This document shows, piece by piece, positions 1,241 to 24,449 of a stretch of 24,449 nt of DNA. Every line of letters starts with the position of its first letter. Position 1 is the stretch's first letter. Source of the DNA: a virus; the IMG/VR virus record IMGVR_UViG_3300044858_000331, positions 1 to 24,449 of that record, one strand, 5' to 3'. The notes under the pieces were generated by a model. The model worked only from the letters and a program-made list of their open reading frames with translations, made no database searches and was not told the DNA's origin. A program made the translations under genes and the position numbers.

Positions 1241-1248
1241 TATTGGTT

Positions 1249-1310
1249 TGGCACTGGCTGGAAGTTACCTAGTCTTTTCGTCGGGAACTGATCGGGCCTA
1301 GTCAGTGCCA
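1249..1310 (+). promoter_or_regulatory. Large imperfect hairpin between terL and portal
   Basis: Bases 1249-1261 can pair with 1298-1310: 13 pairs, two of them G-U. A second stem inside pairs AGTT at 1263-1266 with AACT at 1286-1289 and continues after one mismatch. CCTAGTC occurs twice, at 1268 and 1297. The right arm is followed by AAACTTTTAC, a poor T-tract, so it could be a weak terminator, an mRNA-processing site or a terminase recognition site. No convincing promoter or Shine-Dalgarno sequence precedes the portal ATG. The structure is identical in the second copy (17567-17628). Confidence 0.45.
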
Positions 1311-1343
1311 CCAAACTTTTACTAGATATGGCAAACTAAACCT

Positions 1344-3960: not shown

Positions 3961-3981
3961 TAACCGAAAGGTAGGCCAGTT

Positions 3982-4608
3982 ATGGCCGTCTACTCGGTCA
4001 CCCATAAACAGTTACTGGACAATTTCGCAGTACTGCAAACCCTCACGCCAAACGATTTAGTAGTAGGCGGCAGTTTTACAGTTGCAACAGTTGGCGTACC
4101 TTTTAACGGCACGTTCACCGTTCGGGCTATACCTGAGTATTTGTTTATTGGCGTAGACGAGTACGGTGATTTACTTTACGATTACGAAGTACCGGTACCT
4201 AATCAGGTTCTATATTCATGCACGGGAAACAACGTACAACGCAGCGCTGCCAGCGGCACAATTACGTTTACCGAAACTTGCACGTGGATTACGGCCACGC
4301 AAATAGAAGACTGGTTAGGTATTGGTACAGCGTCGGCACTTGATACGACATTCTTAACCCAATGCGCTTTGGCTGCTAATAGCCTTGCGTTTACTCGACG
4401 TCAAGAGGCAGGCTATATAGACAGCCTTACCACGTCGCCTAATGGGCAGGTAACCCTTGGCACGATCAGCCTTGGCGGTTTCTTTTACAGGCAGCGTGGC
4501 GCGGTAACAGACTTTGCAGCGTTTGACGGTATGGCCGCTGGCAGTTCGGTAGGCCTCAGCCCGGCTATTAAAATGCTGTTAGGCATACCACGGCCACAGG
4601 TTGCCTAA
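3982..4608 (+). CDS. Head-tail connector protein with an extra N-terminal beta-rich domain
   Basis: This 208-residue protein is probably the adaptor that docks below the portal. The C-terminal half (about 105-208) resembles head-tail adaptors of the HK97 gp6 kind: a short helical start with TATQIEDWLGI, then a helix with CALAANSLAFTRRQEAGY, and an ending AIKMLLGIPRP. The N-terminal hundred residues are rich in beta-forming and aromatic residues (FTVATVGVPFNGTFTVRAI) and do not belong to a standard adaptor; they may decorate the neck. AAAGG at 3967-3971 lies 10 bases before the ATG. The stop overlaps the next start (TAATG). Assignment rests on position and the C-terminal pattern. Confidence 0.68.
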   Translation: MAVYSVTHKQLLDNFAVLQTLTPNDLVVGGSFTVATVGVPFNGTFTVRAIPEYLFIGVDEYGDLLYDYEVPVPNQVLYSCTGNNVQRSAASGTITFTETCTWITATQIEDWLGIGTASALDTTFLTQCALAANSLAFTRRQEAGYIDSLTTSPNGQVTLGTISLGGFFYRQRGAVTDFAAFDGMAAGSSVGLSPAIKMLLGIPRPQVA

Positions 4609-4976
4609 TGCCTGTTGCCTACACCGATCTGTTTAATGAGGCGCTAGACGATCTAGCAGCCACGCTAACGACGGTTACAGGGCTGCAGGTAGTAACAGAC
4701 CCCCGTAACCTTGTGCCGCCTTGTGCGTTCATAGACGCGCCTAGTTTTGTGGTTTATGGCGGCGGCGGAAACATAGTGCAACTGACCTACACGGTGCGCC
4801 TAATTACCCTTGGCCCGGGCAACCTTGACGCGCAACGAAACCTAATGCACCTAGCAAGTTTGGTAGTAGGTAAAAACGTTGCCGTAACCGCTGGCCGCCC
4901 TACTATTGCTGTTATCGGTGGGGCCGAAATGCCCGCCTACGATTTAACTATAGAAATGCAAGCCCAAACCAGTTAG
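4608..4976 (+). CDS. Tail terminator-like / neck protein
   Basis: This 122-residue protein lies between the head-tail connector and the major tail protein, the usual place of the tail terminator, which caps the tail tube and joins it to the head. The sequence opens with an amphipathic helix (DLFNEALDDLAATL) and continues with a mixed alpha/beta pattern (PPCAFIDAPSF, VQLTYTVRLITLGPG, LHASLVV-like helix), a pattern compatible with the lambda gpU-type fold. No catalytic motif is seen. It starts at the TAATG junction with the preceding gene, so it is probably translationally coupled. Confidence 0.6.
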   Translation: MPVAYTDLFNEALDDLAATLTTVTGLQVVTDPRNLVPPCAFIDAPSFVVYGGGGNIVQLTYTVRLITLGPGNLDAQRNLMHLASLVVGKNVAVTAGRPTIAVIGGAEMPAYDLTIEMQAQTS

Positions 4977-4984
4977 GAAACCAA

Positions 4985-5164
4985 ATGCCTTACACGATTA
5001 TTAGCCCACGCTTAGGCGAACCCGGCACAGAATATGACGCCGAAAGTGCAGCCGCCAACGGCATAAACGTAGCGGCCCTAGTCGAGGGCGGCCTATTAAA
5101 GCAATCCACAAATGAAACCCCAAAACCTGCTAAAACTAATAGCAAGAACACACCAAAGGACTAA
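4985..5164 (+). CDS. Small hypothetical protein before the major tail protein
   Basis: A 59-codon frame starts at the ATG at 4985 and ends at TAA 5162-5164. The protein begins MPYTIISPRLGEPGTEYDAE, has an Ala/Gly-rich middle ending in VEGGLLK, and a Lys/Thr/Asn-rich tail. AGGAAA directly after the previous stop, 4-8 bases before the ATG, is a suitable ribosome binding site. From memory, similar short proteins with an EGGLL-like motif precede major tail protein genes in other actinophages, but I cannot name a function. The frame exactly fills the gap between its neighbours and is repeated unchanged at 21303-21482. Confidence 0.72.
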   Translation: MPYTIISPRLGEPGTEYDAESAAANGINVAALVEGGLLKQSTNETPKPAKTNSKNTPKD

Positions 5165-5169
5165 CTACT

Positions 5170-5580
5170 ATGGCAACCTCAACTTATCTCAGCAATCCGA
5201 ACGTGACCGTGAACGCAGTTTCTTTGCAGGATCAGTGCCAAGGTTTGGTTTTTACGCGCACTATTGAGGCGCTGGAAAGTACCGCGTTTGGCACAACGTC
5301 ACGCAGTTACACTGCTGGCCTAGAAAACTCCACGCTGCAACTTGATTTGTACGCGTCGTTTGCCGCTTCGGAAACTTACGCAACGCTTAAAGCATTGGTA
5401 GGCACCTCGGTAACCGTTTCGTGGTCACCGTCAGCAACCAGCCCCGGCACTGCTACCAACCCAACCATGACCCTTACAGGCGCATACTTGGAAGCGATCC
5501 CTTACACAATGGCACTAGGCGCATTGGGTACCGTAAGCGTTACCTTTACAGGCGGCGTTTACTCAGTAGTCGAAGTTTAA
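5170..5580 (+). CDS. Major tail protein
   Basis: This 136-residue, Thr/Ser/Ala-rich, beta-dominated protein probably forms the stacked rings of the tail tube. Alternating hydrophobic strands (LQLDLYASF, VSVTFTGGVYSVVEV) and a TMTLTGAYLEAIPY hairpin suit the tail-tube fold, and it is short but acceptable for the smallest siphoviruses. AAGGA at 5155-5159 precedes the ATG by 10 bases. Position immediately before the frameshifted chaperone and the tape measure is the strongest argument. No decoration domain is fused to the C-terminus. Confidence 0.83.
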   Translation: MATSTYLSNPNVTVNAVSLQDQCQGLVFTRTIEALESTAFGTTSRSYTAGLENSTLQLDLYASFAASETYATLKALVGTSVTVSWSPSATSPGTATNPTMTLTGAYLEAIPYTMALGALGTVSVTFTGGVYSVVEV

Positions 5581-5617
5581 TTAAAGCCGGCAACGGCCCG
5601 ACACAAAGGCAGGCACA

Positions 5618-5878
5618 ATGCAATTAACACTTAAAGCAACGTTTAACGACGGCACGACAAACACGGTTACCACCAATTTAAGTACGGTGGTTGCTTGGGA
5701 ACGCAAGTACAGGCGTAAGGCGTCAGAAATGGCGCAAGGCGTAGGCGTTGAGGATTTGGCGTATCTTTGCTACGAAGCAACACGCGCTACAGGTACCACG
5801 GTACCGGGCAACCTTGACCAGTTCATTAGTTCGCTGGCGTCTATTGAGGTAGTCGAGGCCGCTGACCCAAAAGCCTAA
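5618..5878 (+). CDS. Tail assembly chaperone, short form (G-like)
   Basis: The zero-frame product is 86 residues and ends DPKA-stop at 5876. Tail assembly chaperones bind the tape measure and recruit tube subunits. The protein has a beta-rich start (LTLKATFNDGTTNTV) followed by a helical part with VAWERKYRRKASEM and EDLAYLCYEATRATG, typical of the G-like half. AAAGG at 5605-5609 and a following AGG lie upstream of the start. The last codons contain the slippery heptamer that gives the long form. Confidence 0.88.
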   Translation: MQLTLKATFNDGTTNTVTTNLSTVVAWERKYRRKASEMAQGVGVEDLAYLCYEATRATGTTVPGNLDQFISSLASIEVVEAADPKA

Positions 5879-6009
5879 ACGGCACGGTGCGCCGCGCACT
5901 TGCCGAAATCTTAGTAGCAACAGGTTTTTGGCCTAGTGAACTATCATTCGAGTTAGACGATATGAACGCCACCATAGAAATACTGAATAAGCAACGCGGC
6001 GGTAGGTAA
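5618..6009 (+). CDS. Tail assembly chaperone, long form made by -1 frameshift (GT-like)
   Basis: This is join(5618..5872, 5872..6009). After reading AAA at 5870-5872 the ribosome can slip back one base and continue as AGC CTA AAC, giving a 45-residue extension and a 130-residue product. The extension includes RRALAEILVATGFWPSELSF and a final DDMNATIEILNKQRGGR, which reads as real protein and is helix-rich like known T-like extensions. It fills the otherwise unexplained 130 bases before the next gene and its TAA (6007-6009) overlaps that gene's ATG. Lambda gpG/gpGT is the model for this arrangement just before the tape measure. Confidence 0.9.
5866..5905 (+). promoter_or_regulatory. -1 programmed frameshift signal: CCCAAAA plus stem-loop
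   Basis: CCCAAAA at 5866-5872 is a perfect X XXY YYZ heptamer in the correct phase (C CCA AAA). The zero-frame stop follows two codons later. After a 7-base spacer, CGGCA at 5880-5884 pairs with TGCCG at 5901-5905, and inside it GTGCG at 5887-5891 pairs with CGCAC at 5895-5899 around a CCG loop. The spacing suits a stimulatory downstream structure. An identical copy lies at 22184-22223. Confidence 0.9.
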
Positions 6010-6617
6010 TGGTTGCGCGCGCGGCTATCCCCGAAATCTACGGTATTAAAGAGGCGCTAAAAGAGTTAAACGATTTTGATAACAAGTACAGGCGCGAAGT
6101 AACTAAACAGATCGGCGGCGCTGGCCAGCAGATCGTTAGCGAAGCGCGTAGCATGGTTGCCCATTTTGATAACAGCAAACAAAACGGGGCGCCGCTGTCG
6201 GGCATGGTTCGCGGCAATTTAATTAAAGGCCGTAATACCAGTTGGAAAACAGATCAGGTACAAAAAGGTTTTAAGGTAAAAGTAGGCGTACGGGCTAGCA
6301 AGGAACGCTACGTAAACTTTAACCGTAGTGATGATCTAGGCAACCGTTATACCAGCCAAGTGGTTTACGGTTCTAAGCCTTACCAACTTATGGTTATCCA
6401 ACAGGCTGACGCTGCAGGCGCAATTTATGACCATGCCGGGGCACAAACTCAGGGCACGTTTGTAACAAACCTTGACGTGGAAGTAGGCGGCCAGCCCCGC
6501 GCTGTAGATATTGCGGTAGAAAATAACCGCGAGGCAGTCACCGAAAAGGTTATGCAAATCGTAGATACTGTTATGGAAAAGACAAACCGAAAACTGGTAA
6601 CACGCCATGGCAATTAA
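6009..6617 (+). CDS. Tail-region protein of unknown function
   Basis: This 202-residue protein sits between the chaperone and the tape measure. It is basic at the start (NKYRREVTKQIGGAGQQIV) and includes an amphipathic helix and a beta-rich middle (GFKVKVGVRASKERYV). The opening helix with a G-Q-Q-I-V-S-E-A pattern loosely resembles HK97 gp10-like neck proteins, but those normally lie upstream of the major tail protein, so a tail-tip or tube-completion role is equally possible. The start overlaps the stop of the long chaperone (TAATG at 6007-6011) and the end overlaps the tape measure start by 11 bases, which points to coupled translation. Confidence 0.6.
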   Translation: MVARAAIPEIYGIKEALKELNDFDNKYRREVTKQIGGAGQQIVSEARSMVAHFDNSKQNGAPLSGMVRGNLIKGRNTSWKTDQVQKGFKVKVGVRASKERYVNFNRSDDLGNRYTSQVVYGSKPYQLMVIQQADAAGAIYDHAGAQTQGTFVTNLDVEVGGQPRAVDIAVENNREAVTEKVMQIVDTVMEKTNRKLVTRHGN

Positions 6618-8451
6618 CATACCGATAATCAGCAGCCTCGAAGGCAAAGGGTTTCAGCAAGCAATCACCCAACTAAAGGCGCTAGAAACCACGTCGCAAA
6701 AAGCGGGCTATATAGCAGGTAAAGCGTTTTTGCCAGCGGTTGCCGCTATGGGCGCGCTTACTGTTGCTGCCGGGTACAGCATTAAAGCCGCCGTAGAGGA
6801 CAGCGCCGCGCAAGCGATATTAGCCAAAACCCTACAAAACGTTACTAGCGCAACCGACAGCCAAATAGCCGCAATCGAGGAACAAATATCGGTAATGTCG
6901 CTGGCTACTGGCGTTGCTGATGATGAACTACGCCCAGCGTTTGCGTCACTGGTTCGAGTAACCCAAGACGTAACGGCAGCAACCGACGGCCTAAAACTTG
7001 CTATGGATATCTCAGCCGGCACGGGCAAGGATTTAGGTTCGGTTAGTGACGCGCTAGCGAAAGCGTACGGCGGCAACTATAAAGCGTTAGGCCTGCTGTC
7101 GCCTGAACTAAAGAAAATGATTAAAGACGGTGCCAGCCTCGATGAAGTTATGGCTGCTATGGCTAAAACGTTTGGTGGTCAAGCCGCTGTTGCAGCAGGT
7201 ACCGCGCAAGGGCAATTTAAGCGCCTTAACGTGGCACTTGACGAAGCCAAGGAAAGTATAGGCATGGCGTTATTGCCTGCTGTTATGGAAGTGTTGCCGT
7301 ACCTAATTAACTTTGGTAATTGGGCTGCTGACCATACAGGGATTTTGTTAGGCGTCGGCACTGCTATAGCCGCAATATCTACCGCGCTTATCGGATTTAA
7401 GGCAGCGCAAATTATCGCTAACGCGGTAACCGTAGTAACCACGGCGCTGAACTGGTCACTGGCTGCCAGCGCTGCCGCTGCCAACACGGCCCTAACGTTG
7501 GGCGTAGGTGCTGCCGCTATTGCTGCCGGGCTAGTAGTTGCTGCTGGCGCGTTTATGGTTTACAAAAACGCCACCAAATCAGCCGTGGAAGGTAATCGCA
7601 CGTTTGGCGGTTCGCTAACGCCACTGCCCCCAGCCATTGAGGAAGTAGACACTGCTATAGGCGGGGTATCCGATAAGGCTAAGAAAATGGCTGAACGCGT
7701 TAAAGAGGCCAGCGACGCACTTAAAACATATTTGGCAGACGCACTAGCCAACGCGCAAACCCAGTTAGCCGAAGCGCAAGAGGCGTTTAACGATTTTGCT
7801 ACAAACGTTAGCGACGGCATTAAAGACGCGTTTAGTTTCCAAGACGCTAAAGACGCAGGCGACGAAACAGGCGCCGGGTTTCTACAAGGTTTACGAGATC
7901 AGGTAGCAGGTATTGTTAAGTACGGCCAAGACGTCAAAACGCTGTTGCAGTTAGGACTATCCCAAGAAGCGTTGCAGGCTGTACTCGACGCAGGCGGCGA
8001 AAGCGGCGCGGCTATTGCAGCCGAACTTATTAAGGGCGGCGCTACAGCAATCCAAGAAACTAACGCCCTAGTGATGGCAGCCGAACAGGCCGCGTTTACT
8101 ATCGGTCAGTCAGCCGCTAGCCAATGGTACGGTGCCGGCGTTTCTAACGCCCAATCTTATTTGCAGGGCGTCGAGGCGGCGTTTGCTGCAGCCCAAGCCA
8201 AGTTGGGGCAAAAGGGTATTAAGTTGCCTGACATTAAAGGCATAGGCGCAGGATTTGCGGAAGCAATCAGCCCGCAACCAGTAGGCCGAGTAATACCTCA
8301 ACGCCCGGGCCAAGGCTATGAGGATTTCGCAAGCCTTACCGTAAACGTTACGGGCGGCCTTGCTACTAGCGCCGAAGTAGGGCAAGCGGTAGTAAACAGT
8401 ATCCGCGCCTATAACCGTTCAGCAGGCCCCGCAAATATACAGGTGGGCTAA
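6607..8451 (+). CDS. Tape measure protein
   Basis: This is the longest protein of the unit (614 residues). It sets tail length and probably enters the membrane during DNA ejection. It is Ala-rich and mostly helical, with hydrophobic stretches near residues 41-58 and roughly 245-320 (GILLGVGTAIAAIS, GAAAIAAGLVVAAGAFMVY). A helical repeat-like region with ALANAQTQLAEAQEAFNDF lies around 380-397. At about 0.15 nm per residue the tail would be near 90 nm, an estimate from the usual rule. The gene follows the chaperone and the 202-residue protein and overlaps the latter by 11 bases. No lysozyme or peptidase domain is recognisable in it. Confidence 0.93.
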   Translation: MAINIPIISSLEGKGFQQAITQLKALETTSQKAGYIAGKAFLPAVAAMGALTVAAGYSIKAAVEDSAAQAILAKTLQNVTSATDSQIAAIEEQISVMSLATGVADDELRPAFASLVRVTQDVTAATDGLKLAMDISAGTGKDLGSVSDALAKAYGGNYKALGLLSPELKKMIKDGASLDEVMAAMAKTFGGQAAVAAGTAQGQFKRLNVALDEAKESIGMALLPAVMEVLPYLINFGNWAADHTGILLGVGTAIAAISTALIGFKAAQIIANAVTVVTTALNWSLAASAAAANTALTLGVGAAAIAAGLVVAAGAFMVYKNATKSAVEGNRTFGGSLTPLPPAIEEVDTAIGGVSDKAKKMAERVKEASDALKTYLADALANAQTQLAEAQEAFNDFATNVSDGIKDAFSFQDAKDAGDETGAGFLQGLRDQVAGIVKYGQDVKTLLQLGLSQEALQAVLDAGGESGAAIAAELIKGGATAIQETNALVMAAEQAAFTIGQSAASQWYGAGVSNAQSYLQGVEAAFAAAQAKLGQKGIKLPDIKGIGAGFAEAISPQPVGRVIPQRPGQGYEDFASLTVNVTGGLATSAEVGQAVVNSIRAYNRSAGPANIQVG

Positions 8452-14090: not shown

Positions 14091-14299
14091 CCCGCTACAA
14101 ATCTAACTACAGTTACGCCCAAGATTTACGCGACGTACGCCAACACAGCATGGAAACAGCGCGCAAACTGGCAGCCGAACAGGCGTTAGTAATGGACTTA
14201 AATAACCAAATACACGCGCTAAACGTCGAGGTAGAACGCCTAACTGACGAACTAAACCTAGCCCATGAAGCATTACGCAGGGCCTTTAGTCCACAATGA
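14087..14299 (+). CDS. Small coiled-coil protein
   Basis: The 70-residue product is a basic head (MTRYKSNYSYAQDLRDVRQH) followed by a heptad-like helix from about residue 20 to 65 with ALVMDLNNQIHALNVEVERL. It is probably a homo-oligomeric coiled coil; function unknown. Both ends overlap neighbours by ATGA, so it is expressed with the annealing protein and the nuclease and may bridge them. Confidence 0.68.
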   Translation: MTRYKSNYSYAQDLRDVRQHSMETARKLAAEQALVMDLNNQIHALNVEVERLTDELNLAHEALRRAFSPQ

Positions 14300-14643
14300 C
14301 GCCTAACCTAATGAGTGAACGCGATCTAAAAAACTCAATAGTGAACTTTGCACGTAGTTACGGCTGGCTAGTTCACCACGATTTACCAAGCCAACGCGCT
14401 AACGGCAGTTGGGCTACAGCAGTACAAGGCGACAGCGGTTTTCCCGATTTAGTGTTAGTTCACCCGGGCAACCATATTAAACGTTTGCCAGCACAAATTA
14501 TTTATGCCGAACTTAAAACGCAACGTGGCAAACTAACTACAGGTCAGCAACAATGGTTAGACATTTTGCAGGCAGCAGGGCAAACAGCGGTAGTTTGGCG
14601 CCCTGCAGATTTACAAGCAATCTTTACCAAACTGATGGTATAA
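14296..14643 (+). CDS. VRR-NUC domain nuclease (Holliday junction resolvase-like)
   Basis: The 115-residue protein consists only of a VRR-NUC domain of the PD-(D/E)XK superfamily. GFPDLVLV supplies Asp51, YAELKTQRGKL supplies Glu72 and Lys74, and TTGQQQWLDIL supplies Gln84 or Gln85 and the following helix; the N-terminal SERDLKNSIVNFARSYGW contributes a conserved Glu near position 8. Such stand-alone proteins cleave branched DNA. In a phage this would clear recombination or replication intermediates before packaging. It starts at ATGA with the preceding stop; ATG at 14311 is an alternative start that keeps the domain. Confidence 0.88.
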   Translation: MTPNLMSERDLKNSIVNFARSYGWLVHHDLPSQRANGSWATAVQGDSGFPDLVLVHPGNHIKRLPAQIIYAELKTQRGKLTTGQQQWLDILQAAGQTAVVWRPADLQAIFTKLMV

Positions 14644-14645
14644 AA

Positions 14646-15473
14646 ATGCTTACAGTAGGCAGCCTCTTTAGTGGCATTGGCGGTTTAGATTTAGGTTTAG
14701 AACGTGCAGGCATGGAAATAATATGGCAGTCAGAAATTGACCCTTACTGCAACAAAGTATTAAAAAAGCATTGGCCCGAGGTGCCTAACTATGGAAATAT
14801 TAAAGAAATTGACTGGTCAAGAGTGCCAAGACCTGACGTTATTTGCGGTGGCTACCCCTGCCAGCCCTTTAGCACCGCAGGAAAACGACGAGGAACTGAT
14901 GACCCTCGACACTTGTGGCCATGGGTTAGAGACGCCATTAGCAACTTACGACCACGCTACGCAATTTTGGAAAACGTCAGAGGCCATCTCACTATGGGGG
15001 GAACCACAGTTATTGGTGAACTTGCCGAAATCGGGTATGACGCGGAATGGCGTATTGTTTCAGCAGCAGGAATGGGCGCGCCCCATAGACGCGACAGAAT
15101 TATCATTGTGGCCTACCCCAACAACGCAAGAGAACGAACACCCGGGGGCAACATGGAACAGCAAGGGGCGAAGGGTAGCACCCAGCGGAGTAACTCATGG
15201 AATGAACTTGGCCGACGCAGTGCAAATGTGGCCAACACCAACAGCAGACGACGCCAGCAACGTGAACCCGAAACCAAACCGCTTTCGTGGGCTAGTAGCA
15301 GCAGTGAACGAAACTACGCCAACTGGTGGAAAACTGAACCCAGCGTGGGTCGAGTGGTTAATGGGGTTTCCAATCGGGTGGACAGACTTAAAGGATTAGG
15401 TAACGCAGTAGTGCCGCAAGTTGCGGAATATATAGGCCGCCTTGTAATGGCAGCCGAACTAGATAACTCATAG
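14646..15473 (+). CDS. DNA cytosine-5 methyltransferase (Dcm family)
   Basis: The 275-residue enzyme transfers a methyl group from S-adenosylmethionine to cytosine and probably protects phage DNA from host restriction; no partner endonuclease is present. Motif I is LFSGIGGLDLGL at 7-18, motif IV GGYPCQPFS at 68-76 with nucleophile Cys72, motif VI ENVRG at 109-113, motif VIII GAPHRRDRIIIVAYP at 144-158, and motifs IX-X GRVVNGVSNRVDRLKGLGN to about residue 262. The target-recognition stretch (about 160-230) is unusually poor in hydrophobic residues and rich in Asn, Arg, Ser and Gln. A start at 14553 would add 31 residues read out of frame from the nuclease gene, so ATG 14646 is chosen; its ribosome binding site is weak. 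A second gene lies inside it (14791-15399). Confidence 0.93.
   Translation: MLTVGSLFSGIGGLDLGLERAGMEIIWQSEIDPYCNKVLKKHWPEVPNYGNIKEIDWSRVPRPDVICGGYPCQPFSTAGKRRGTDDPRHLWPWVRDAISNLRPRYAILENVRGHLTMGGTTVIGELAEIGYDAEWRIVSAAGMGAPHRRDRIIIVAYPNNARERTPGGNMEQQGAKGSTQRSNSWNELGRRSANVANTNSRRRQQREPETKPLSWASSSSERNYANWWKTEPSVGRVVNGVSNRVDRLKGLGNAVVPQVAEYIGRLVMAAELDNS
14791..15399 (+). CDS. Nested overlapping gene inside the methyltransferase (+1 frame)
   Basis: This 202-codon frame lies wholly within the methyltransferase gene, shifted by +1. GAGG at 14778-14781 with a 9-base spacer gives it a stronger ribosome binding site than its host gene. The protein reads as real: FWKTSEAISLWGE at 59-71, LPKSGMTRNGVLF at 78-90, two WPTPT motifs at 107-111 and 147-151, and KLNPAWVEWLMGFPIGWTDL at 181-200. 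From memory the SGM-x-R-x-G, WPTP and LNP-x-WVEWLMGFP-x-GWTDL series marks a phage protein family often encoded near Dcm genes and sometimes annotated loosely as methylase. Its function is unknown. The conserved bases serve both frames: LNPAWVEWLMGFP and EPSVGRVVNGVSNRV are the same DNA. Confidence 0.75.
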   Translation: MEILKKLTGQECQDLTLFAVATPASPLAPQENDEELMTLDTCGHGLETPLATYDHATQFWKTSEAISLWGEPQLLVNLPKSGMTRNGVLFQQQEWARPIDATELSLWPTPTTQENEHPGATWNSKGRRVAPSGVTHGMNLADAVQMWPTPTADDASNVNPKPNRFRGLVAAVNETTPTGGKLNPAWVEWLMGFPIGWTDLKD

Positions 15474-15805: not shown

Positions 15806-17558
15806 ACGCGAAGGCCCACGCCCACGCAACCAAGCCGACTACAAACGCAACAAACAAATACTGTTAGCAGAAAACCCATTCTGCCATTGGTGCAACATGC
15901 CGGCCACGGAAGCAGATCACCTAATCGAAGTAGATCGAGGCGGCGACAACTCACTAGAAAACATGGTCAGCGCCTGCAGAAAATGCAACGCAACACGCGG
16001 AAACAAGTACAGGGCTGCACGTGACGCAGGAAAATACACTGCCGCAAACCCAATGCCAGTAAGGGAAATAGAACACGAACACTCACAGCGTTTTTTTGGG
16101 GTATCGACTCCTGCCCCCGTCTCATCCTTTTCTATATCCCATAAGGGTTTGGCGGAACTGGCGCCGACTGGCCACGATCTACCCCGACTGGAAACGATCA
16201 CGCACAGTGGCGAACGATCTAGCGCTAGCCGCATATTGGGGTTTGCCCGTGACGTGCTTGACGTCGAGTTAATGCCGTGGCAGGTACGCGCGTTGCATGG
16301 TCAAACCGCTGTTGCTGATGATGGCAGCAGGCCCCGGGTTAGTTTGGTGTCTGTCGCCCGGCAGAATGGTAAAACAGTTTGCATAGCCTCGCTACTTGGC
16401 GACTGGTTGCTTAATGAGGCACGGGAAAGAGGTACCCCGCAAACGGTTATTAGCGTGGCGCACAAATTGGATTTGGCTACAGCGCTGTTTAATTATTTGG
16501 CGCCGATACTGGAAGTTAAATGCGGGGCCGAAGTTTCATGGAGTTATGGCCGCCAAAAACTAACTATGCCCGACGGCAGCGTTTGGCATATTAGGGCGGC
16601 TACCCCGGGCGCTGGTCACGGTTACAGCGTAGATTTGCTGATAATTGACGAGGCTTGGGCGGTATCTACTGAGGCCATAGACCAAGGTTTATTACCTACC
16701 CAGCGCGCACGCAAAAACCCTTTATGCAGTATGTGGAGTACAGCGGGCGACAGTAGCAGCGTTGCCATGTTGCGTTGGCGTGAACAGGGTTTACGAACTA
16801 TTGACGAAGGCAAACCCGGCAGCCTTTACTTTGCTGAGTGGTCACCTGACCCCGCCAAAATGGATTTGATGACGCCTGCCGCGTGGGCTATGGCTAACCC
16901 AGCGTTGGGGTACACCCTCGATATGGAAGTGATAGCGGCTGAGGCTGAGGCCCCGAACCGTAACGCGTTTCTACGAAGTTCGGTTAATACGTGGACTGCT
17001 GCCGCCGCTGGGTGGTTAGAACCCGGGCAGTTTGCAGCCTGCCAAACTGACGCTGTAGCCCCACCGGGCGGAGTGCTAGCAATTGAGGTAGGCGAGGATA
17101 GCGGCCACTTTTACGGCGTGCGCGCTGTCATATCGGGAACAAAAACGCACGTGGTAACCGCGTTCGTGGCTGACACTATGGCCGAAATGTGGCGGCATGT
17201 TGAGGCAGAAATAGTTAAAGCCCCAAACCTAAAACTGGCTATAGTGCCGTCGCTGGAAGTTCACTGCCCGCCAAACCTATTAAGACGGGCAACCATTGTT
17301 GGCTACCGTGAACTAAACCGGTGGACTGCTGCCGCGCGTTCGATCATTGTTGAGGGCCGCCTGTTGCATAACGGCGAACACTTACTAACAGAACACGTCG
17401 AAAAGGCAACATTGGTTAAACACAATGGCAACATAGTTATAAGTTCGCAACGATCACCCGGGCCTATCTCAATGGCACGCTGTTTAGTGTTTGCTGTTGC
17501 CTTAGTCGGCAAACCTGCCGCTATGGGCAAACCCATAATAGTTAGCGCTGCTGGCTAG
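15795..17558 (+). CDS. terL: HNH endonuclease fused to terminase large subunit (complete)
   Basis: The 587-residue DNA-packaging motor joins two usually separate proteins. Residues 20-75 are an HNH nuclease: zinc-binding Cys30/Cys33 and Cys61/Cys64, ADH at 40-42 with the catalytic His42, and CNATRGNK at 64-71. A Ser/Pro-rich linker covers about 95-140. The ATPase follows: MPWQVRALHGQ (adenine/Q region, 160-170), Walker A SVARQNGKT (186-194), Walker B LLIIDE (281-286) and WSTAG (314-318). The nuclease part (about 425-587) begins LAIEVGEDSG, where Glu431 stands at the place often occupied by Asp. HNH proteins encoded next to terL are needed for cos cleavage in HK97 and related phages, so the fusion puts both activities in one chain. 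GGAG at 15786-15789 precedes the ATG by 5 bases. No small terminase is recognised. Confidence 0.93.
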   Translation: MPSKREGPRPRNQADYKRNKQILLAENPFCHWCNMPATEADHLIEVDRGGDNSLENMVSACRKCNATRGNKYRAARDAGKYTAANPMPVREIEHEHSQRFFGVSTPAPVSSFSISHKGLAELAPTGHDLPRLETITHSGERSSASRILGFARDVLDVELMPWQVRALHGQTAVADDGSRPRVSLVSVARQNGKTVCIASLLGDWLLNEARERGTPQTVISVAHKLDLATALFNYLAPILEVKCGAEVSWSYGRQKLTMPDGSVWHIRAATPGAGHGYSVDLLIIDEAWAVSTEAIDQGLLPTQRARKNPLCSMWSTAGDSSSVAMLRWREQGLRTIDEGKPGSLYFAEWSPDPAKMDLMTPAAWAMANPALGYTLDMEVIAAEAEAPNRNAFLRSSVNTWTAAAAGWLEPGQFAACQTDAVAPPGGVLAIEVGEDSGHFYGVRAVISGTKTHVVTAFVADTMAEMWRHVEAEIVKAPNLKLAIVPSLEVHCPPNLLRRATIVGYRELNRWTAAARSIIVEGRLLHNGEHLLTEHVEKATLVKHNGNIVISSQRSPGPISMARCLVFAVALVGKPAAMGKPIIVSAAG

Positions 17559-17566
17559 TATTGGTT

Positions 17567-17628
17567 TGGCACTGGCTGGAAGTTACCTAGTCTTTTCGTC
17601 GGGAACTGATCGGGCCTAGTCAGTGCCA
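17567..17628 (+). promoter_or_regulatory. terL-portal hairpin, second copy
   Basis: This is identical to 1249-1310, although the upstream terminase sequences differ between the copies. The arms are 17567-17579 and 17616-17628. Confidence 0.45.
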
Positions 17629-17661
17629 CCAAACTTTTACTAGATATGGCAAACTAAACCT

Positions 17662-18744
17662 ATGGGCCTTTTTACACGTGCTACCGCTGACAGCCGCGAA
17701 CCTGTAGTAAAGGCCGCCGCCGGCAGTAATGTCGGTATGTCGCAACTCGATAACTTTTATGCGTTTACGCAAGGCAACACACGCCAACGCGCTATGAGTG
17801 TGCCGGCCATTACCCGGGCGCGCGATCTGTTGGCAAGTGTCATTGGTTGCACGCCACTAAAAATGTATAACGAAATGTGGAACGGCGAAGAAATGGAAGA
17901 GGTAGATATAGCGCCGCGTAGTTGGTTGCGTCGCCTTGACCCAGCGCTACCAAACAGCACACTATTTGCGTGGTTATTTGATGATCTTTTTTTTACTCAG
18001 CGGGCGTTTTTAGCGATCACCGCGCGCACTGCTGACGGTTTCCCTAGCGCGTTTCAGCGTATGCCTAGCGCCATGGTATTAACGCAGGATCAGGCAGGCC
18101 CCGTTTTCTTTGCACCGTCTAAACAAATAATGTTTAGCGGGTTGCCAGTAGACCACCGCGACGTCGTGCAATTTATTAGCCCTATCCAAGGTTTGTTATT
18201 TACTAGCCCTAACGCTGTTTTAACGTCGCTTAAACTCGAAGGCGCCCGGTTGCGATCTGCTGCTAACTCACTGCCCAACGGCGTATTGCGCCAAGTTGGC
18301 GGCGAACCATTAAGCGGCGAGGAACTGCAACAACTGTCGCAAAGTTTCGAGGCCGCACGACTTACGAACACTGTTGCCGCATTAAATGAGTTTGTTACCT
18401 ACACCGAAACCACTACAGACCCCAGTAAACAAATGCTGGTTGAGGCCTCAGAATATCAGGCACTAGAAATAGCCCGGCTAGCAAACTGCCCGCCATATTT
18501 GTTAGGTGTAGCAACTGGTAGTTACTCATACCAAAACAGCACCCAAGCGCGGCAAGATTTATATATGTTTGGCGCCAAATTGTTTATGGACTGTATTAGC
18601 GAAACGCTAAGCGCAGATAACGTGCTACCGCGCGGCACGTACGTAAAGTTTGATATAGAGGACTACCTAAGCGAAAACTATTTGATGGAAAAAGAAAACG
18701 AAAACTACGACACTGCCGAAACTGGAGTAATGCCCAATGCTTAA
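17662..18744 (+). CDS. Portal protein, second copy
   Basis: The 360-residue product is identical to that of 1344-2426. It has the same 8-base overlap with the protease-capsid gene. It follows the complete HNH-terminase gene here, so this copy shows the packaging order terL-portal intact. Confidence 0.93.
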   Translation: MGLFTRATADSREPVVKAAAGSNVGMSQLDNFYAFTQGNTRQRAMSVPAITRARDLLASVIGCTPLKMYNEMWNGEEMEEVDIAPRSWLRRLDPALPNSTLFAWLFDDLFFTQRAFLAITARTADGFPSAFQRMPSAMVLTQDQAGPVFFAPSKQIMFSGLPVDHRDVVQFISPIQGLLFTSPNAVLTSLKLEGARLRSAANSLPNGVLRQVGGEPLSGEELQQLSQSFEAARLTNTVAALNEFVTYTETTTDPSKQMLVEASEYQALEIARLANCPPYLLGVATGSYSYQNSTQARQDLYMFGAKLFMDCISETLSADNVLPRGTYVKFDIEDYLSENYLMEKENENYDTAETGVMPNA

Positions 18745-20278
18745 ACTAACTCAGCAAGAATTAACACTCGACGCGGCAGGCCCCGACGGCATGCCACGCC
18801 GCACACTGGCGGGCCTTGCCTTGCCGTACAACGTGCAAGCCACGGTAAGCGACGGCACTAAAGTTATGTTTATGCCGGGCAGCCTTGACGCTGGCGGCAA
18901 AATGCCCAAATTATATTTGGGCCATGACAGCACGCAGGCCGTAGGTTTGGTAACCGCTATGGTAGACACACCCGGCGGCATGATGTACGAAGCCCGCATA
19001 AGCGAAACCACGCTAGGAAACGAAGCGCTAGTACTGGCCGCTGACGGCGTTTTAGACGCAGTATCCGTAGGCGTAAACCCCACAAAGTTTAGTTACGACG
19101 CTGAAGGCGTAATGGTGATCGAGGCCGCCCAGTGGCAAGAATTAAGCCTCGTGCCGTTCGGTGCGTTTGCTGGCGCGTCAGTAGATCGAGTGGCCGCCAG
19201 TATCCACCAACAGCCCGACGAAGTAGAGTTAAATGATAAACAGGAACCCGTAGAGGAGAATAACGAAATGTCAAACCCAGTAGAAACCCCAGCCGTTATC
19301 GAAGCCGCACCAATGGCCCAGCCATTGTACGCGCAGCCACGCAATTTTAAGTTGCCATCGGCTAGCGAGTTTATCGCTGCAACAATTCAGGGCGGCGGCG
19401 TACTTGCCGAAATGAACGCACGTATTCAGGCAGCAGCGCCAAACATTACTACCACTGACACCCCCGGCCTGTTACCAGAAGTGCTGACCACAAATGTCTA
19501 CGATTCGCTTAACCCGATCAGACCGTTTGTTAGCGCTATTGGTGCTAAGGCCATGCCACAAAGCGGCGCAACATTCCGCCGCCCAGTCATTACGGTACGC
19601 CCAGTAGTAACACAGCAGCCAACGGGCCAACTAAACCAACTTGACCCAAGCACTGTTACCGTTGCTAATAACAACGTAAACAAATTGACATTTGGAACAT
19701 TTGTAACAATGTCTGAACAGGATTTAGACTGGACTGACCCAGCCTCGATTAACATTGTGTTAAACCAGTTGGCAATCGCTTACGGCCAAGCAACTGATAA
19801 CTATGCAGTAGATACTTGCCATGCAGCAATTACACAAACTTCATCAGTAGCCGACACTTCAGATCCTGCCGACTGGATCGCCGCTATCTATGATGGCGCC
19901 CGTCAAATTAGCCAAACCAGCAACTACCTACCTACCCATATGTTCGTTACACCGGGTACGTGGGCAGCGTTGGGTTCATTGGTAGACAGCACAGGCCGCC
20001 CAGTATTCCCACAGATCGGCGCTATGAACGCACCGGGCGAACTGTCAGCCAACTCATGGAACGGTAACCCGCTTGGTTTGGTACTTGTAGTAGACAAGCA
20101 CGCACCCGGTTCATTCATGGGACACGCAGCAGGCCCAGCAGCAGGGTTCGAGTTCTACGAACAGCAAAAGGGCGCTATCTCGGTAGACGTACCAAGCACA
20201 CTTGGCCGCACTATTGCCTACCGTGGCTACGCAGCCGCGTTCATGGCAGACGCAACCAAGTTCGTTAAGTTCGTCTGA
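18737..20278 (+). CDS. Prohead protease-major capsid fusion, second copy
   Basis: The 513-residue product is identical to that of 2419-3960, with the same GGAG before the start and the same domain order: U35-like protease, acidic linker, HK97 capsid fold. Confidence 0.93.
   Translation: MLKLTQQELTLDAAGPDGMPRRTLAGLALPYNVQATVSDGTKVMFMPGSLDAGGKMPKLYLGHDSTQAVGLVTAMVDTPGGMMYEARISETTLGNEALVLAADGVLDAVSVGVNPTKFSYDAEGVMVIEAAQWQELSLVPFGAFAGASVDRVAASIHQQPDEVELNDKQEPVEENNEMSNPVETPAVIEAAPMAQPLYAQPRNFKLPSASEFIAATIQGGGVLAEMNARIQAAAPNITTTDTPGLLPEVLTTNVYDSLNPIRPFVSAIGAKAMPQSGATFRRPVITVRPVVTQQPTGQLNQLDPSTVTVANNNVNKLTFGTFVTMSEQDLDWTDPASINIVLNQLAIAYGQATDNYAVDTCHAAITQTSSVADTSDPADWIAAIYDGARQISQTSNYLPTHMFVTPGTWAALGSLVDSTGRPVFPQIGAMNAPGELSANSWNGNPLGLVLVVDKHAPGSFMGHAAGPAAGFEFYEQQKGAISVDVPSTLGRTIAYRGYAAAFMADATKFVKFV
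19268..20278 (+). CDS. Internal capsid start, second copy
   Basis: This is the counterpart of 2950-3960. GAGGAG at 19253-19258 precedes the in-frame ATG by 9 bases, giving a 336-residue free capsid protein. Confidence 0.7.
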   Translation: MSNPVETPAVIEAAPMAQPLYAQPRNFKLPSASEFIAATIQGGGVLAEMNARIQAAAPNITTTDTPGLLPEVLTTNVYDSLNPIRPFVSAIGAKAMPQSGATFRRPVITVRPVVTQQPTGQLNQLDPSTVTVANNNVNKLTFGTFVTMSEQDLDWTDPASINIVLNQLAIAYGQATDNYAVDTCHAAITQTSSVADTSDPADWIAAIYDGARQISQTSNYLPTHMFVTPGTWAALGSLVDSTGRPVFPQIGAMNAPGELSANSWNGNPLGLVLVVDKHAPGSFMGHAAGPAAGFEFYEQQKGAISVDVPSTLGRTIAYRGYAAAFMADATKFVKFV

Positions 20279-20299
20279 TAACCGAAAGGTAGGCCAGTT

Positions 20300-20926
20300 A
20301 TGGCCGTCTACTCGGTCACCCATAAACAGTTACTGGACAATTTCGCAGTACTGCAAACCCTCACGCCAAACGATTTAGTAGTAGGCGGCAGTTTTACAGT
20401 TGCAACAGTTGGCGTACCTTTTAACGGCACGTTCACCGTTCGGGCTATACCTGAGTATTTGTTTATTGGCGTAGACGAGTACGGTGATTTACTTTACGAT
20501 TACGAAGTACCGGTACCTAATCAGGTTCTATATTCATGCACGGGAAACAACGTACAACGCAGCGCTGCCAGCGGCACAATTACGTTTACCGAAACTTGCA
20601 CGTGGATTACGGCCACGCAAATAGAAGACTGGTTAGGTATTGGTACAGCGTCGGCACTTGATACGACATTCTTAACCCAATGCGCTTTGGCTGCTAATAG
20701 CCTTGCGTTTACTCGACGTCAAGAGGCAGGCTATATAGACAGCCTTACCACGTCGCCTAATGGGCAGGTAACCCTTGGCACGATCAGCCTTGGCGGTTTC
20801 TTTTACAGGCAGCGTGGCGCGGTAACAGACTTTGCAGCGTTTGACGGTATGGCCGCTGGCAGTTCGGTAGGCCTCAGCCCGGCTATTAAAATGCTGTTAG
20901 GCATACCACGGCCACAGGTTGCCTAA
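20300..20926 (+). CDS. Head-tail connector, second copy
   Basis: The 208-residue product is identical to that of 3982-4608: a beta-rich N-terminal domain followed by an adaptor-like C-terminal half. Confidence 0.68.
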   Translation: MAVYSVTHKQLLDNFAVLQTLTPNDLVVGGSFTVATVGVPFNGTFTVRAIPEYLFIGVDEYGDLLYDYEVPVPNQVLYSCTGNNVQRSAASGTITFTETCTWITATQIEDWLGIGTASALDTTFLTQCALAANSLAFTRRQEAGYIDSLTTSPNGQVTLGTISLGGFFYRQRGAVTDFAAFDGMAAGSSVGLSPAIKMLLGIPRPQVA

Positions 20927-21294
20927 TGCCTGTTGCCTACACCGATCTGTTTAATGAGGCGCTAGACGATCTAGCAGCCACGCTAACGACGGTTACAGGG
21001 CTGCAGGTAGTAACAGACCCCCGTAACCTTGTGCCGCCTTGTGCGTTCATAGACGCGCCTAGTTTTGTGGTTTATGGCGGCGGCGGAAACATAGTGCAAC
21101 TGACCTACACGGTGCGCCTAATTACCCTTGGCCCGGGCAACCTTGACGCGCAACGAAACCTAATGCACCTAGCAAGTTTGGTAGTAGGTAAAAACGTTGC
21201 CGTAACCGCTGGCCGCCCTACTATTGCTGTTATCGGTGGGGCCGAAATGCCCGCCTACGATTTAACTATAGAAATGCAAGCCCAAACCAGTTAG
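20926..21294 (+). CDS. Tail terminator-like protein, second copy
   Basis: The 122-residue product is identical to that of 4608-4976 and begins at the same TAATG junction. Confidence 0.6.
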   Translation: MPVAYTDLFNEALDDLAATLTTVTGLQVVTDPRNLVPPCAFIDAPSFVVYGGGGNIVQLTYTVRLITLGPGNLDAQRNLMHLASLVVGKNVAVTAGRPTIAVIGGAEMPAYDLTIEMQAQTS

Positions 21295-21302
21295 GAAACC
21301 AA

Positions 21303-21482
21303 ATGCCTTACACGATTATTAGCCCACGCTTAGGCGAACCCGGCACAGAATATGACGCCGAAAGTGCAGCCGCCAACGGCATAAACGTAGCGGCCCTAGT
21401 CGAGGGCGGCCTATTAAAGCAATCCACAAATGAAACCCCAAAACCTGCTAAAACTAATAGCAAGAACACACCAAAGGACTAA
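21303..21482 (+). CDS. Small hypothetical protein before the major tail protein, second copy
   Basis: The 59-codon frame is identical to 4985-5164, with AGGAAA directly after the preceding stop as its ribosome binding site. Confidence 0.72.
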   Translation: MPYTIISPRLGEPGTEYDAESAAANGINVAALVEGGLLKQSTNETPKPAKTNSKNTPKD

Positions 21483-21487
21483 CTACT

Positions 21488-21898
21488 ATGGCAACCTCAA
21501 CTTATCTCAGCAATCCGAACGTGACCGTGAACGCAGTTTCTTTGCAGGATCAGTGCCAAGGTTTGGTTTTTACGCGCACTATTGAGGCGCTGGAAAGTAC
21601 CGCGTTTGGCACAACGTCACGCAGTTACACTGCTGGCCTAGAAAACTCCACGCTGCAACTTGATTTGTACGCGTCGTTTGCCGCTTCGGAAACTTACGCA
21701 ACGCTTAAAGCATTGGTAGGCACCTCGGTAACCGTTTCGTGGTCACCGTCAGCAACCAGCCCCGGCACTGCTACCAACCCAACCATGACCCTTACAGGCG
21801 CATACTTGGAAGCGATCCCTTACACAATGGCACTAGGCGCATTGGGTACCGTAAGCGTTACCTTTACAGGCGGCGTTTACTCAGTAGTCGAAGTTTAA
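21488..21898 (+). CDS. Major tail protein, second copy
   Basis: The 136-residue product is identical to that of 5170-5580. Confidence 0.83.
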   Translation: MATSTYLSNPNVTVNAVSLQDQCQGLVFTRTIEALESTAFGTTSRSYTAGLENSTLQLDLYASFAASETYATLKALVGTSVTVSWSPSATSPGTATNPTMTLTGAYLEAIPYTMALGALGTVSVTFTGGVYSVVEV

Positions 21899-21935
21899 TT
21901 AAAGCCGGCAACGGCCCGACACAAAGGCAGGCACA

Positions 21936-22196
21936 ATGCAATTAACACTTAAAGCAACGTTTAACGACGGCACGACAAACACGGTTACCACCAATTTAAG
22001 TACGGTGGTTGCTTGGGAACGCAAGTACAGGCGTAAGGCGTCAGAAATGGCGCAAGGCGTAGGCGTTGAGGATTTGGCGTATCTTTGCTACGAAGCAACA
22101 CGCGCTACAGGTACCACGGTACCGGGCAACCTTGACCAGTTCATTAGTTCGCTGGCGTCTATTGAGGTAGTCGAGGCCGCTGACCCAAAAGCCTAA
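21936..22196 (+). CDS. Tail assembly chaperone short form, second copy
   Basis: The 86-residue zero-frame product is identical to that of 5618-5878. Confidence 0.88.
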   Translation: MQLTLKATFNDGTTNTVTTNLSTVVAWERKYRRKASEMAQGVGVEDLAYLCYEATRATGTTVPGNLDQFISSLASIEVVEAADPKA

Positions 22197-22327
22197 ACGG
22201 CACGGTGCGCCGCGCACTTGCCGAAATCTTAGTAGCAACAGGTTTTTGGCCTAGTGAACTATCATTCGAGTTAGACGATATGAACGCCACCATAGAAATA
22301 CTGAATAAGCAACGCGGCGGTAGGTAA
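21936..22327 (+). CDS. Tail assembly chaperone long form (-1 frameshift), second copy
   Basis: This is join(21936..22190, 22190..22327), giving the same 130-residue product as 5618-6009. The stop overlaps the next start. Confidence 0.9.
22184..22223 (+). promoter_or_regulatory. -1 frameshift signal, second copy
   Basis: CCCAAAA at 22184-22190, a 7-base spacer and the stem-loop at 22198-22223 are identical to the first copy. Confidence 0.9.
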
Positions 22328-22935
22328 TGGTTGCGCGCGCGGCTATCCCCGAAATCTACGGTATTAAAGAGGCGCTAAAAGAGTTAAACGATTTTGATAA
22401 CAAGTACAGGCGCGAAGTAACTAAACAGATCGGCGGCGCTGGCCAGCAGATCGTTAGCGAAGCGCGTAGCATGGTTGCCCATTTTGATAACAGCAAACAA
22501 AACGGGGCGCCGCTGTCGGGCATGGTTCGCGGCAATTTAATTAAAGGCCGTAATACCAGTTGGAAAACAGATCAGGTACAAAAAGGTTTTAAGGTAAAAG
22601 TAGGCGTACGGGCTAGCAAGGAACGCTACGTAAACTTTAACCGTAGTGATGATCTAGGCAACCGTTATACCAGCCAAGTGGTTTACGGTTCTAAGCCTTA
22701 CCAACTTATGGTTATCCAACAGGCTGACGCTGCAGGCGCAATTTATGACCATGCCGGGGCACAAACTCAGGGCACGTTTGTAACAAACCTTGACGTGGAA
22801 GTAGGCGGCCAGCCCCGCGCTGTAGATATTGCGGTAGAAAATAACCGCGAGGCAGTCACCGAAAAGGTTATGCAAATCGTAGATACTGTTATGGAAAAGA
22901 CAAACCGAAAACTGGTAACACGCCATGGCAATTAA
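22327..22935 (+). CDS. Tail-region protein of unknown function, second copy
   Basis: The 202-residue product is identical to that of 6009-6617. It overlaps the tape measure start by 11 bases. Confidence 0.6.
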   Translation: MVARAAIPEIYGIKEALKELNDFDNKYRREVTKQIGGAGQQIVSEARSMVAHFDNSKQNGAPLSGMVRGNLIKGRNTSWKTDQVQKGFKVKVGVRASKERYVNFNRSDDLGNRYTSQVVYGSKPYQLMVIQQADAAGAIYDHAGAQTQGTFVTNLDVEVGGQPRAVDIAVENNREAVTEKVMQIVDTVMEKTNRKLVTRHGN

Positions 22936-24449
22936 CATACCGATAATCAGCAGCCTCGAAGGCAAAGGGTTTCAGCAAGCAATCACCCAACTAAAGGCGC
23001 TAGAAACCACGTCGCAAAAAGCGGGCTATATAGCAGGTAAAGCGTTTTTGCCAGCGGTTGCCGCTATGGGCGCGCTTACTGTTGCTGCCGGGTACAGCAT
23101 TAAAGCCGCCGTAGAGGACAGCGCCGCGCAAGCGATATTAGCCAAAACCCTACAAAACGTTACTAGCGCAACCGACAGCCAAATAGCCGCAATCGAGGAA
23201 CAAATATCGGTAATGTCGCTGGCTACTGGCGTTGCTGATGATGAACTACGCCCAGCGTTTGCGTCACTGGTTCGAGTAACCCAAGACGTAACGGCAGCAA
23301 CCGACGGCCTAAAACTTGCTATGGATATCTCAGCCGGCACGGGCAAGGATTTAGGTTCGGTTAGTGACGCGCTAGCGAAAGCGTACGGCGGCAACTATAA
23401 AGCGTTAGGCCTGCTGTCGCCTGAACTAAAGAAAATGATTAAAGACGGTGCCAGCCTCGATGAAGTTATGGCTGCTATGGCTAAAACGTTTGGTGGTCAA
23501 GCCGCTGTTGCAGCAGGTACCGCGCAAGGGCAATTTAAGCGCCTTAACGTGGCACTTGACGAAGCCAAGGAAAGTATAGGCATGGCGTTATTGCCTGCTG
23601 TTATGGAAGTGTTGCCGTACCTAATTAACTTTGGTAATTGGGCTGCTGACCATACAGGGATTTTGTTAGGCGTCGGCACTGCTATAGCCGCAATATCTAC
23701 CGCGCTTATCGGATTTAAGGCAGCGCAAATTATCGCTAACGCGGTAACCGTAGTAACCACGGCGCTGAACTGGTCACTGGCTGCCAGCGCTGCCGCTGCC
23801 AACACGGCCCTAACGTTGGGCGTAGGTGCTGCCGCTATTGCTGCCGGGCTAGTAGTTGCTGCTGGCGCGTTTATGGTTTACAAAAACGCCACCAAATCAG
23901 CCGTGGAAGGTAATCGCACGTTTGGCGGTTCGCTAACGCCACTGCCCCCAGCCATTGAGGAAGTAGACACTGCTATAGGCGGGGTATCCGATAAGGCTAA
24001 GAAAATGGCTGAACGCGTTAAAGAGGCCAGCGACGCACTTAAAACATATTTGGCAGACGCACTAGCCAACGCGCAAACCCAGTTAGCCGAAGCGCAAGAG
24101 GCGTTTAACGATTTTGCTACAAACGTTAGCGACGGCATTAAAGACGCGTTTAGTTTCCAAGACGCTAAAGACGCAGGCGACGAAACAGGCGCCGGGTTTC
24201 TACAAGGTTTACGAGATCAGGTAGCAGGTATTGTTAAGTACGGCCAAGACGTCAAAACGCTGTTGCAGTTAGGACTATCCCAAGAAGCGTTGCAGGCTGT
24301 ACTCGACGCAGGCGGCGAAAGCGGCGCGGCTATTGCAGCCGAACTTATTAAGGGCGGCGCTACAGCAATCCAAGAAACTAACGCCCTAGTGATGGCAGCC
24401 GAACAGGCCGCGTTTACTATCGGTCAGTCAGCCGCTAGCCAATGGTACG
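22925..24449 (+). CDS. Tape measure protein, second copy, cut by the window end
   Basis: The first 508 codons of the 614-codon gene are present, and the sequence stops at the position equivalent to 8131. The truncation is the end of the sequence and not a mutation; the part present matches 6607-8131. Confidence 0.93.
   Translation, partial: MAINIPIISSLEGKGFQQAITQLKALETTSQKAGYIAGKAFLPAVAAMGALTVAAGYSIKAAVEDSAAQAILAKTLQNVTSATDSQIAAIEEQISVMSLATGVADDELRPAFASLVRVTQDVTAATDGLKLAMDISAGTGKDLGSVSDALAKAYGGNYKALGLLSPELKKMIKDGASLDEVMAAMAKTFGGQAAVAAGTAQGQFKRLNVALDEAKESIGMALLPAVMEVLPYLINFGNWAADHTGILLGVGTAIAAISTALIGFKAAQIIANAVTVVTTALNWSLAASAAAANTALTLGVGAAAIAAGLVVAAGAFMVYKNATKSAVEGNRTFGGSLTPLPPAIEEVDTAIGGVSDKAKKMAERVKEASDALKTYLADALANAQTQLAEAQEAFNDFATNVSDGIKDAFSFQDAKDAGDETGAGFLQGLRDQVAGIVKYGQDVKTLLQLGLSQEALQAVLDAGGESGAAIAAELIKGGATAIQETNALVMAAEQAAFTIGQSAASQWY

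Follow-up and report, generated by a model that had tools for sequence, protein, structure and literature searches.

Two overlapping reading frames probably encode the subunits of one phage C5-cytosine DNA methyltransferase

The viral DNA analysed here (24,449 nucleotides in all; IMG/VR record IMGVR_UViG_3300044858_000331; referred to as the window) contains a cytosine methyltransferase gene, alpha, inside which a second long frame, beta, lies open at +1. This raises the question of whether two conserved proteins are read from the same DNA, as the original prediction had it, and of what the nested protein would contribute. The features discussed below are collected in Table 1. We used 14646 as the start of alpha; the mechanical open reading frame call reaches back to 14553 and is overlapped by the gene directly upstream, which encodes a VRR-NUC nuclease-like protein (14296-14643; PF08774, E 1.4e-6). 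The first part of the window (1-8131) recurs at 16319-24449. The two copies differ at 72 of 8,131 bases, and 60 or more of these mismatches fall within the first 955 bases (the terminase end). The window is a 16,318-base unit present one and a half times. It has the look of a small (~16 kb) phage in concatemeric form, or of two close variants of one assembled together.

Table 1. Positions in the window of the two overlapping genes and their parts
Feature	Position	Strand	Basis
Alpha, C5-cytosine DNA methyltransferase catalytic subunit	14646-15473	+	PF00145, phrog_363, M.HhaI profile match
Beta, 202 aa nested subunit, +1 frame of alpha	14791-15399	+	phrog_1008 E 2e-27, selection and stop tests
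Beta ribosome-binding site GAGG, inside alpha	14778-14781	+	GAG codon of HWPEVPN
Beta N-terminal half, over alpha motifs IV-VIII	14791-15108	+	Consensus-residue and stop tests
Beta module 1 (cluster 0, WPTPTTQEN...LADAVQM), probable target-recognition unit	15109-15228	+	Cluster 0: 33 loci, array positions 0-3
Beta module 2 (cluster 11, WPTPTADDASNVNPK...), probable target-recognition unit	15229-15333	+	Cluster 11: 10 loci, array positions 0-2
Beta motif IX (LNPAWVEWLMGFPIGWT)	15334-15384	+	Profile match to single-chain motif IX
Alpha-frame spacer, motifs VIII to X, neutrally evolving	15117-15392	+	Alpha dN/dS 1.05 and 1.19
Alpha motif X (GLGNAVVPQ)	15393-15419	+	G252, N253 invariant in 87 sequences

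Alpha carries the motifs expected of a PF00145 C5-methyltransferase, namely the SAM motif I, IV (PCQ), VI (ENV), VIII (RxR) and X. It matched PF00145 over residues 3-175 (E 6.8e-48) and phrog_363 along its full length (E 3e-88), and its profile aligned with M.HhaI across motifs I-VIII, with a second, weak stretch at X. Residues C72, E109, N110, R149, R151, G252 and N253 were invariant among 87 sequences. Motif and profile comparison showed motif IX to be absent from the alpha frame, the IX-like sequence being in the +1 frame; motif X adjoins the motif IX of beta directly, yet reads in the alpha frame.

The beta frame runs from the ATG at 14791 through 202 codons to a stop at 15397-15399 and, as the original prediction described, has its own GAGG nine bases ahead of the ATG. 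The proposed coincidences of motifs in the two frames (alpha/beta: VAYPNN/WPTPTT, VANTNS/WPTPTA and EPSVGRVVNGVSNRVDRL/NPAWVEWLMGFPIGWTDL) are exact. A tblastn search with beta returned 208 phage records, every one below 60% identity, in agreement with the original prediction that the motif series recurs in phages. Because a beta query is biased to open frames, we also used alpha by itself as query and retrieved 80 viral loci. All 80 had an open +1 frame, over 163-301 codons of alpha, and so the frequent stops that would have spoken against a nested gene were not seen; the longest open run in the +2 frame of the same loci was ~107 codons.

To obtain an expectation for stops, the synonymous codons of homologous alpha genes were resampled with the alpha proteins held fixed. 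For the first half of the overlap (alpha residues 64-156, 61 genes) ~248 stops were expected in the +1 frame and 4 were observed; for the second half (59 genes) the corresponding values were 133 and 1. The +2 frame had 252 and 425 stops in the two halves. Consensus residues of beta in the first half were also more frequent than alpha alone would produce (0.53 observed, 0.30 expected), the values outside the overlap being 0.47/0.38 and 0.40/0.33. The stop and consensus tests took the place of NN/NS in the first half, since the ratio there was no lower than in a non-overlapped control.

The start signals of beta lie within alpha codons where a synonymous choice exists. At the Glu codon that makes the GAGG, 35 of 47 relatives have GAG and none has GAA, against a ratio of 9:97 at the other Glu codons in alpha residues 1-46. 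At the NAY codon that makes the ATG, NAT was found in 39 of the 47 and NAC in none, compared with 75:131 at the comparison NAY codons. As the sequences are related, these counts are not independent events and Fisher values calculated from them overstate significance. The pattern indicates that the GAGG/ATG start of beta is maintained through synonymous codon choice.

We then asked which frame leads in which part of the overlap. Outside the overlap, the third codon positions of alpha are the most variable. Between motifs VIII and X the first positions of alpha are the most variable, which is the pattern of the beta frame. dN/dS was estimated with changes counted by their effect in both frames, using 6 disjoint close pairs and 16 more distant pairs. 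In the region from VIII to X, beta gave 0.36 [0.28-0.48] and alpha 1.05 [0.82-1.44] with the close pairs; with the distant pairs the values were 0.52 [0.46-0.59] and 1.19 [1.04-1.37], respectively. With beta constrained and alpha neutral, the alpha-frame stretch between these motifs is a neutral spacer, which fits the earlier description of the recognition stretch of the methyltransferase as noise-like. The leading frame over the first half is that of alpha (0.06 and 0.17), with the constraint on beta added on top. An overlapping-gene selection test of the kind proposed with the original prediction finds purifying selection on the nested frame that exceeds what the host frame imposes. Actinophage homologues in which everything is on a single chain (3 pairs) had dN/dS values of 0.33 [0.26-0.43] in the alpha frame and 0.96 [0.74-1.24] in the +1 frame, the mirror image of the nested genes' constraint.

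These results bear on the simplest alternative, that the +1 frame is an untranslated echo of alpha's motif conservation and codon bias. An echo would account for the unremarkable first-half NN/NS and for the single-chain homologues also being short of +1 stops there (13, with 28 expected). However, the deficit of stops and the excess of consensus residues were measured given the alpha proteins, and neither the beta-frame periodicity with a neutral alpha between VIII and X nor the codon choice at the start signals is what an echo would leave. Resampling, the consensus test and the single-chain control together rule it out, and we regard it as having a negligible chance of being correct. The stop, consensus, selection and start-codon tests agree that two conserved proteins are read from one stretch of DNA, and they indicate that the ORF at 14791-15399 is a real gene, with an openness far beyond chance.

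What, then, is beta? It had no match in Pfam or NCBIfam, and its family by profile is PHROG 1008, labelled DNA methyltransferase. An AlphaFold model of beta alone was poor (pLDDT 62, pTM 0.34) and gave no structural match; a direct search of the PDB with the beta profile yielded only chance matches to kelch and glycolipid-transfer proteins. More informative were relatives in which the same elements are arranged differently. In Mycobacterium phage Rita gp76 and its relatives, motif VIII is followed by LLPTP repeats, RLAPAFSEWMMGWPAGWVT and IGNGVVPQQA, all in the same frame. One such single-chain protein matched phrog_363 and phrog_1008 together and PF00145 from end to end; its AlphaFold model, in which the core and the IX/X end were well predicted and the repeats were not, had M.HhaI as its best Foldseek match. 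In Gordonia phages Float294 and Upyo and Streptomyces phage Samora, alpha ends after VIII, and the repeats, IX and X are in the +1 frame. The C-terminal half of beta, consisting of WPTP modules and LNPxWVEWLMGFPxGWTD, has its counterpart in the catalytic frame of the single-chain homologues, and its LNPAWVEWLMGFPIGWT aligned with the single-chain motif IX over 19 columns (profile probability 95.6, E 1.1e-8). Beta therefore holds motif IX and, judged by the position between VIII and IX, the recognition region.

Beta thus does not represent a family invented anew, since its motif IX and its shuffled WPTP modules are elements that single-chain homologues carry in the catalytic frame. The suggestion that the whole family arose by overprinting motifs VI-IX was not supported. 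The C-terminal half corresponds to the in-frame recognition/IX region of the single-chain homologues; the N-terminal half, with conserved YDxxTxxWKTS and PxSGMTRNG and no known homologue, looks overprinted on alpha motifs IV-VIII. That half, together with the lack of a Pfam match, is what could be said for beta as a separate overprinted protein (an inhibitor, anti-restriction protein or regulator) that merely sits in a methyltransferase gene. Against this, the C-terminal half is a region that single-chain enzymes carry in frame, alpha has no motif IX, and among 249 loci beta was found apart from alpha only in one fragment. We consider a separate protein improbable; nothing points to the inhibitory or independent anti-restriction role that had been offered among the options, and the role in specificity offered with them is the likeliest function.

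A programmed +1 frameshift could also join the N-terminal part of alpha to the +1 recognition region, giving one long product that would resemble the single-chain enzymes. The nested frame, however, is already open and under constraint at about alpha residue 49, a long way before the point at which the shift would be needed, and has its own conserved GAGG and ATG. Furthermore, motif X reads in the alpha frame, so the ribosome would have to shift back again. A frameshifted product seems to us marginally less credible even than a separate protein.

We consider it very probable that alpha and beta are two overlapping-frame subunits of one C5-cytosine methyltransferase, with beta bringing motif IX and target recognition. 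This reading draws on the openness of and selection on both frames, the internal start signals, the motif IX homology, the shuffling of modules described below, the reciprocal constraint in single-chain homologues and the precedent of M.EcoHK31I, a characterised two-polypeptide enzyme whose small subunit has IX alone; we counted against it the poor AlphaFold model of beta, the placement of the target-recognition domain (TRD) in M.EcoHK31I and the layout in Rhodococcus phage ReT1v-2. In the latter (L004:1835-2998) the +1 frame has the modules and the alpha frame has IX and X; IX and the modules are thus not obliged to travel together. In the viral contig L158:789-2033, the nested frame passes the end of alpha by more than 100 codons after IX and has a different downstream sequence.

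Cutting the recognition region at WPTP/LPTP gave 465 modules from 242 loci, with 31 clusters of at least 3 members. There were 103 distinct arrays, some occurring in both orders (e.g. 0-6 and 6-0), and some modules shared 75-89% identity between loci at which the N-terminal parts of alpha shared only 35-51%. The array in the window consists of clusters 0 and 11; the core sequence of the window is the same as that of locus L009 and was counted there. Tandem exchangeable modules between VIII and IX are what characterizes the multispecific phage methyltransferases, and the modules of beta are probable target-recognition units.

The arrangement is widespread. We collected 249 loci (near-copies included). 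Of these, 169 were viral, phage or window loci and 80 came from genomes spread over many bacterial phyla; the genome loci were found through the WVEWLMG motif of beta and so show where beta occurs rather than how often alpha lacks it. The motif regex used on the loci misses some cases (noIX rows). Beta was in the +1 frame of alpha at 248 of the 249; the exception is a truncated fragment (L204) in which the alpha-like frame still holds motif X. No other free-standing beta was found among these loci, and the idea of a separate family encoded near Dcm genes was therefore not borne out. When the Salmonella phage version was used as query against E. coli genomes, four chromosomal copies were found, none recognizable as EcoHK31I.

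In a tree of alpha motifs I-VIII rooted with M.HhaI, the single-chain and split actinophage forms group together (100/98), deep inside the nested forms. The nested form would then be older and the actinophage forms appear to have been re-fused or re-split, a direction that is provisional because the outgroup is single and long-branched; an unrooted reading still needs few changes. That these loci make up a large phage and bacterial methyltransferase class, with an exchangeable recognition array in an overlapping frame, its modules (necessarily free of stops in both frames) being swapped by recombination to give combinatorial multispecific methylation, and with the nested form ancestral and the actinophage forms re-fused or re-split, we hold to be an evenly balanced proposition.

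In the mechanism we propose, alpha would supply catalysis and AdoMet binding (motifs I-VIII and X), and beta, translated from its own internal ribosome site, would supply motif IX and the target-recognition modules. The heterodimer would methylate phage DNA at sites set by the module array, potentially several (there are two modules here), probably protecting the DNA against host restriction. The alpha-frame stretch between VIII and X would need only to stay open.

Annotation mostly hides the arrangement, in that one protein is dropped or both are named methyltransferase. Annotators recorded the internal gene in Paenibacillus phage Redbud (gp51). In Mycobacterium phage DosHalletts (L250:1314-2001) beta alone is annotated (gp71, hypothetical protein) and the catalytic alpha was missed; in ReT1v-2 the annotated features are the +1 ORF and, of alpha, just the final 50 codons. 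PHROG 1008 includes members, beta among them, that have no catalytic core and sit in the +1 frame of genes belonging to PHROG 363. Fused and split versions extending to motif X are covered by the PHROG 1008 profile as well, and its label is likely to have been inherited from the overlapping or fused gene. The methylase of Mycobacterium phage ShiLan is known for an out-of-frame HNH insertion (PMC11855218). It also matches the beta query (Rita and ShiLan, H44-H46), so that out-of-frame genes of two kinds occur within a single gene family.

What was one oddity of the 1990s becomes a widespread gene architecture. Here a long overlap on one strand occurs naturally, its two halves are led by different frames, and the relatives with nested, split and single-chain forms supply internal controls. 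Should the modules be recognition units, comparing array order with methylomes could give a module-to-site code, and the restriction systems that a phage evades could be predicted.

We found no description in the literature of such nesting as a general feature of phage Dcm genes; the breadth, the neutral alpha spacer, the shuffled modules in beta and the three related architectures were likewise undescribed in the literature we found. The closest known system is M.EcoHK31I (YGGCCR), the small gene of which is nested in the large one. Its large subunit has motifs I-VIII, X and a predicted TRD, and its small subunit has motif IX only (PMC3404938). As in alpha/beta, I-VIII and X are on one chain and IX on another, which is the motif layout that defines that system, and on the layout described in PMC3404938 the window locus would work in the same way. 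They differ in that the TRD is predicted in the large subunit of M.EcoHK31I, whereas here the alpha stretch is neutral and the modules are in beta. To our knowledge, the multispecific C5-methyltransferases of Bacillus phages make no use of a second frame. In M.AquI, I-VIII are on one chain and the recognition region and IX on another (PMC3404938), a layout seen in Float294, Upyo and Samora; unlike in the window, where X stays in alpha, its X accompanies IX and its genes are not nested. The Bacillus phage enzymes (SPR, phi3T, rho11 and H2) have several tandem target-recognition domains (PMC8936443) and, unlike alpha/beta, are single chains; it is these tandem domains that the module array of beta resembles.
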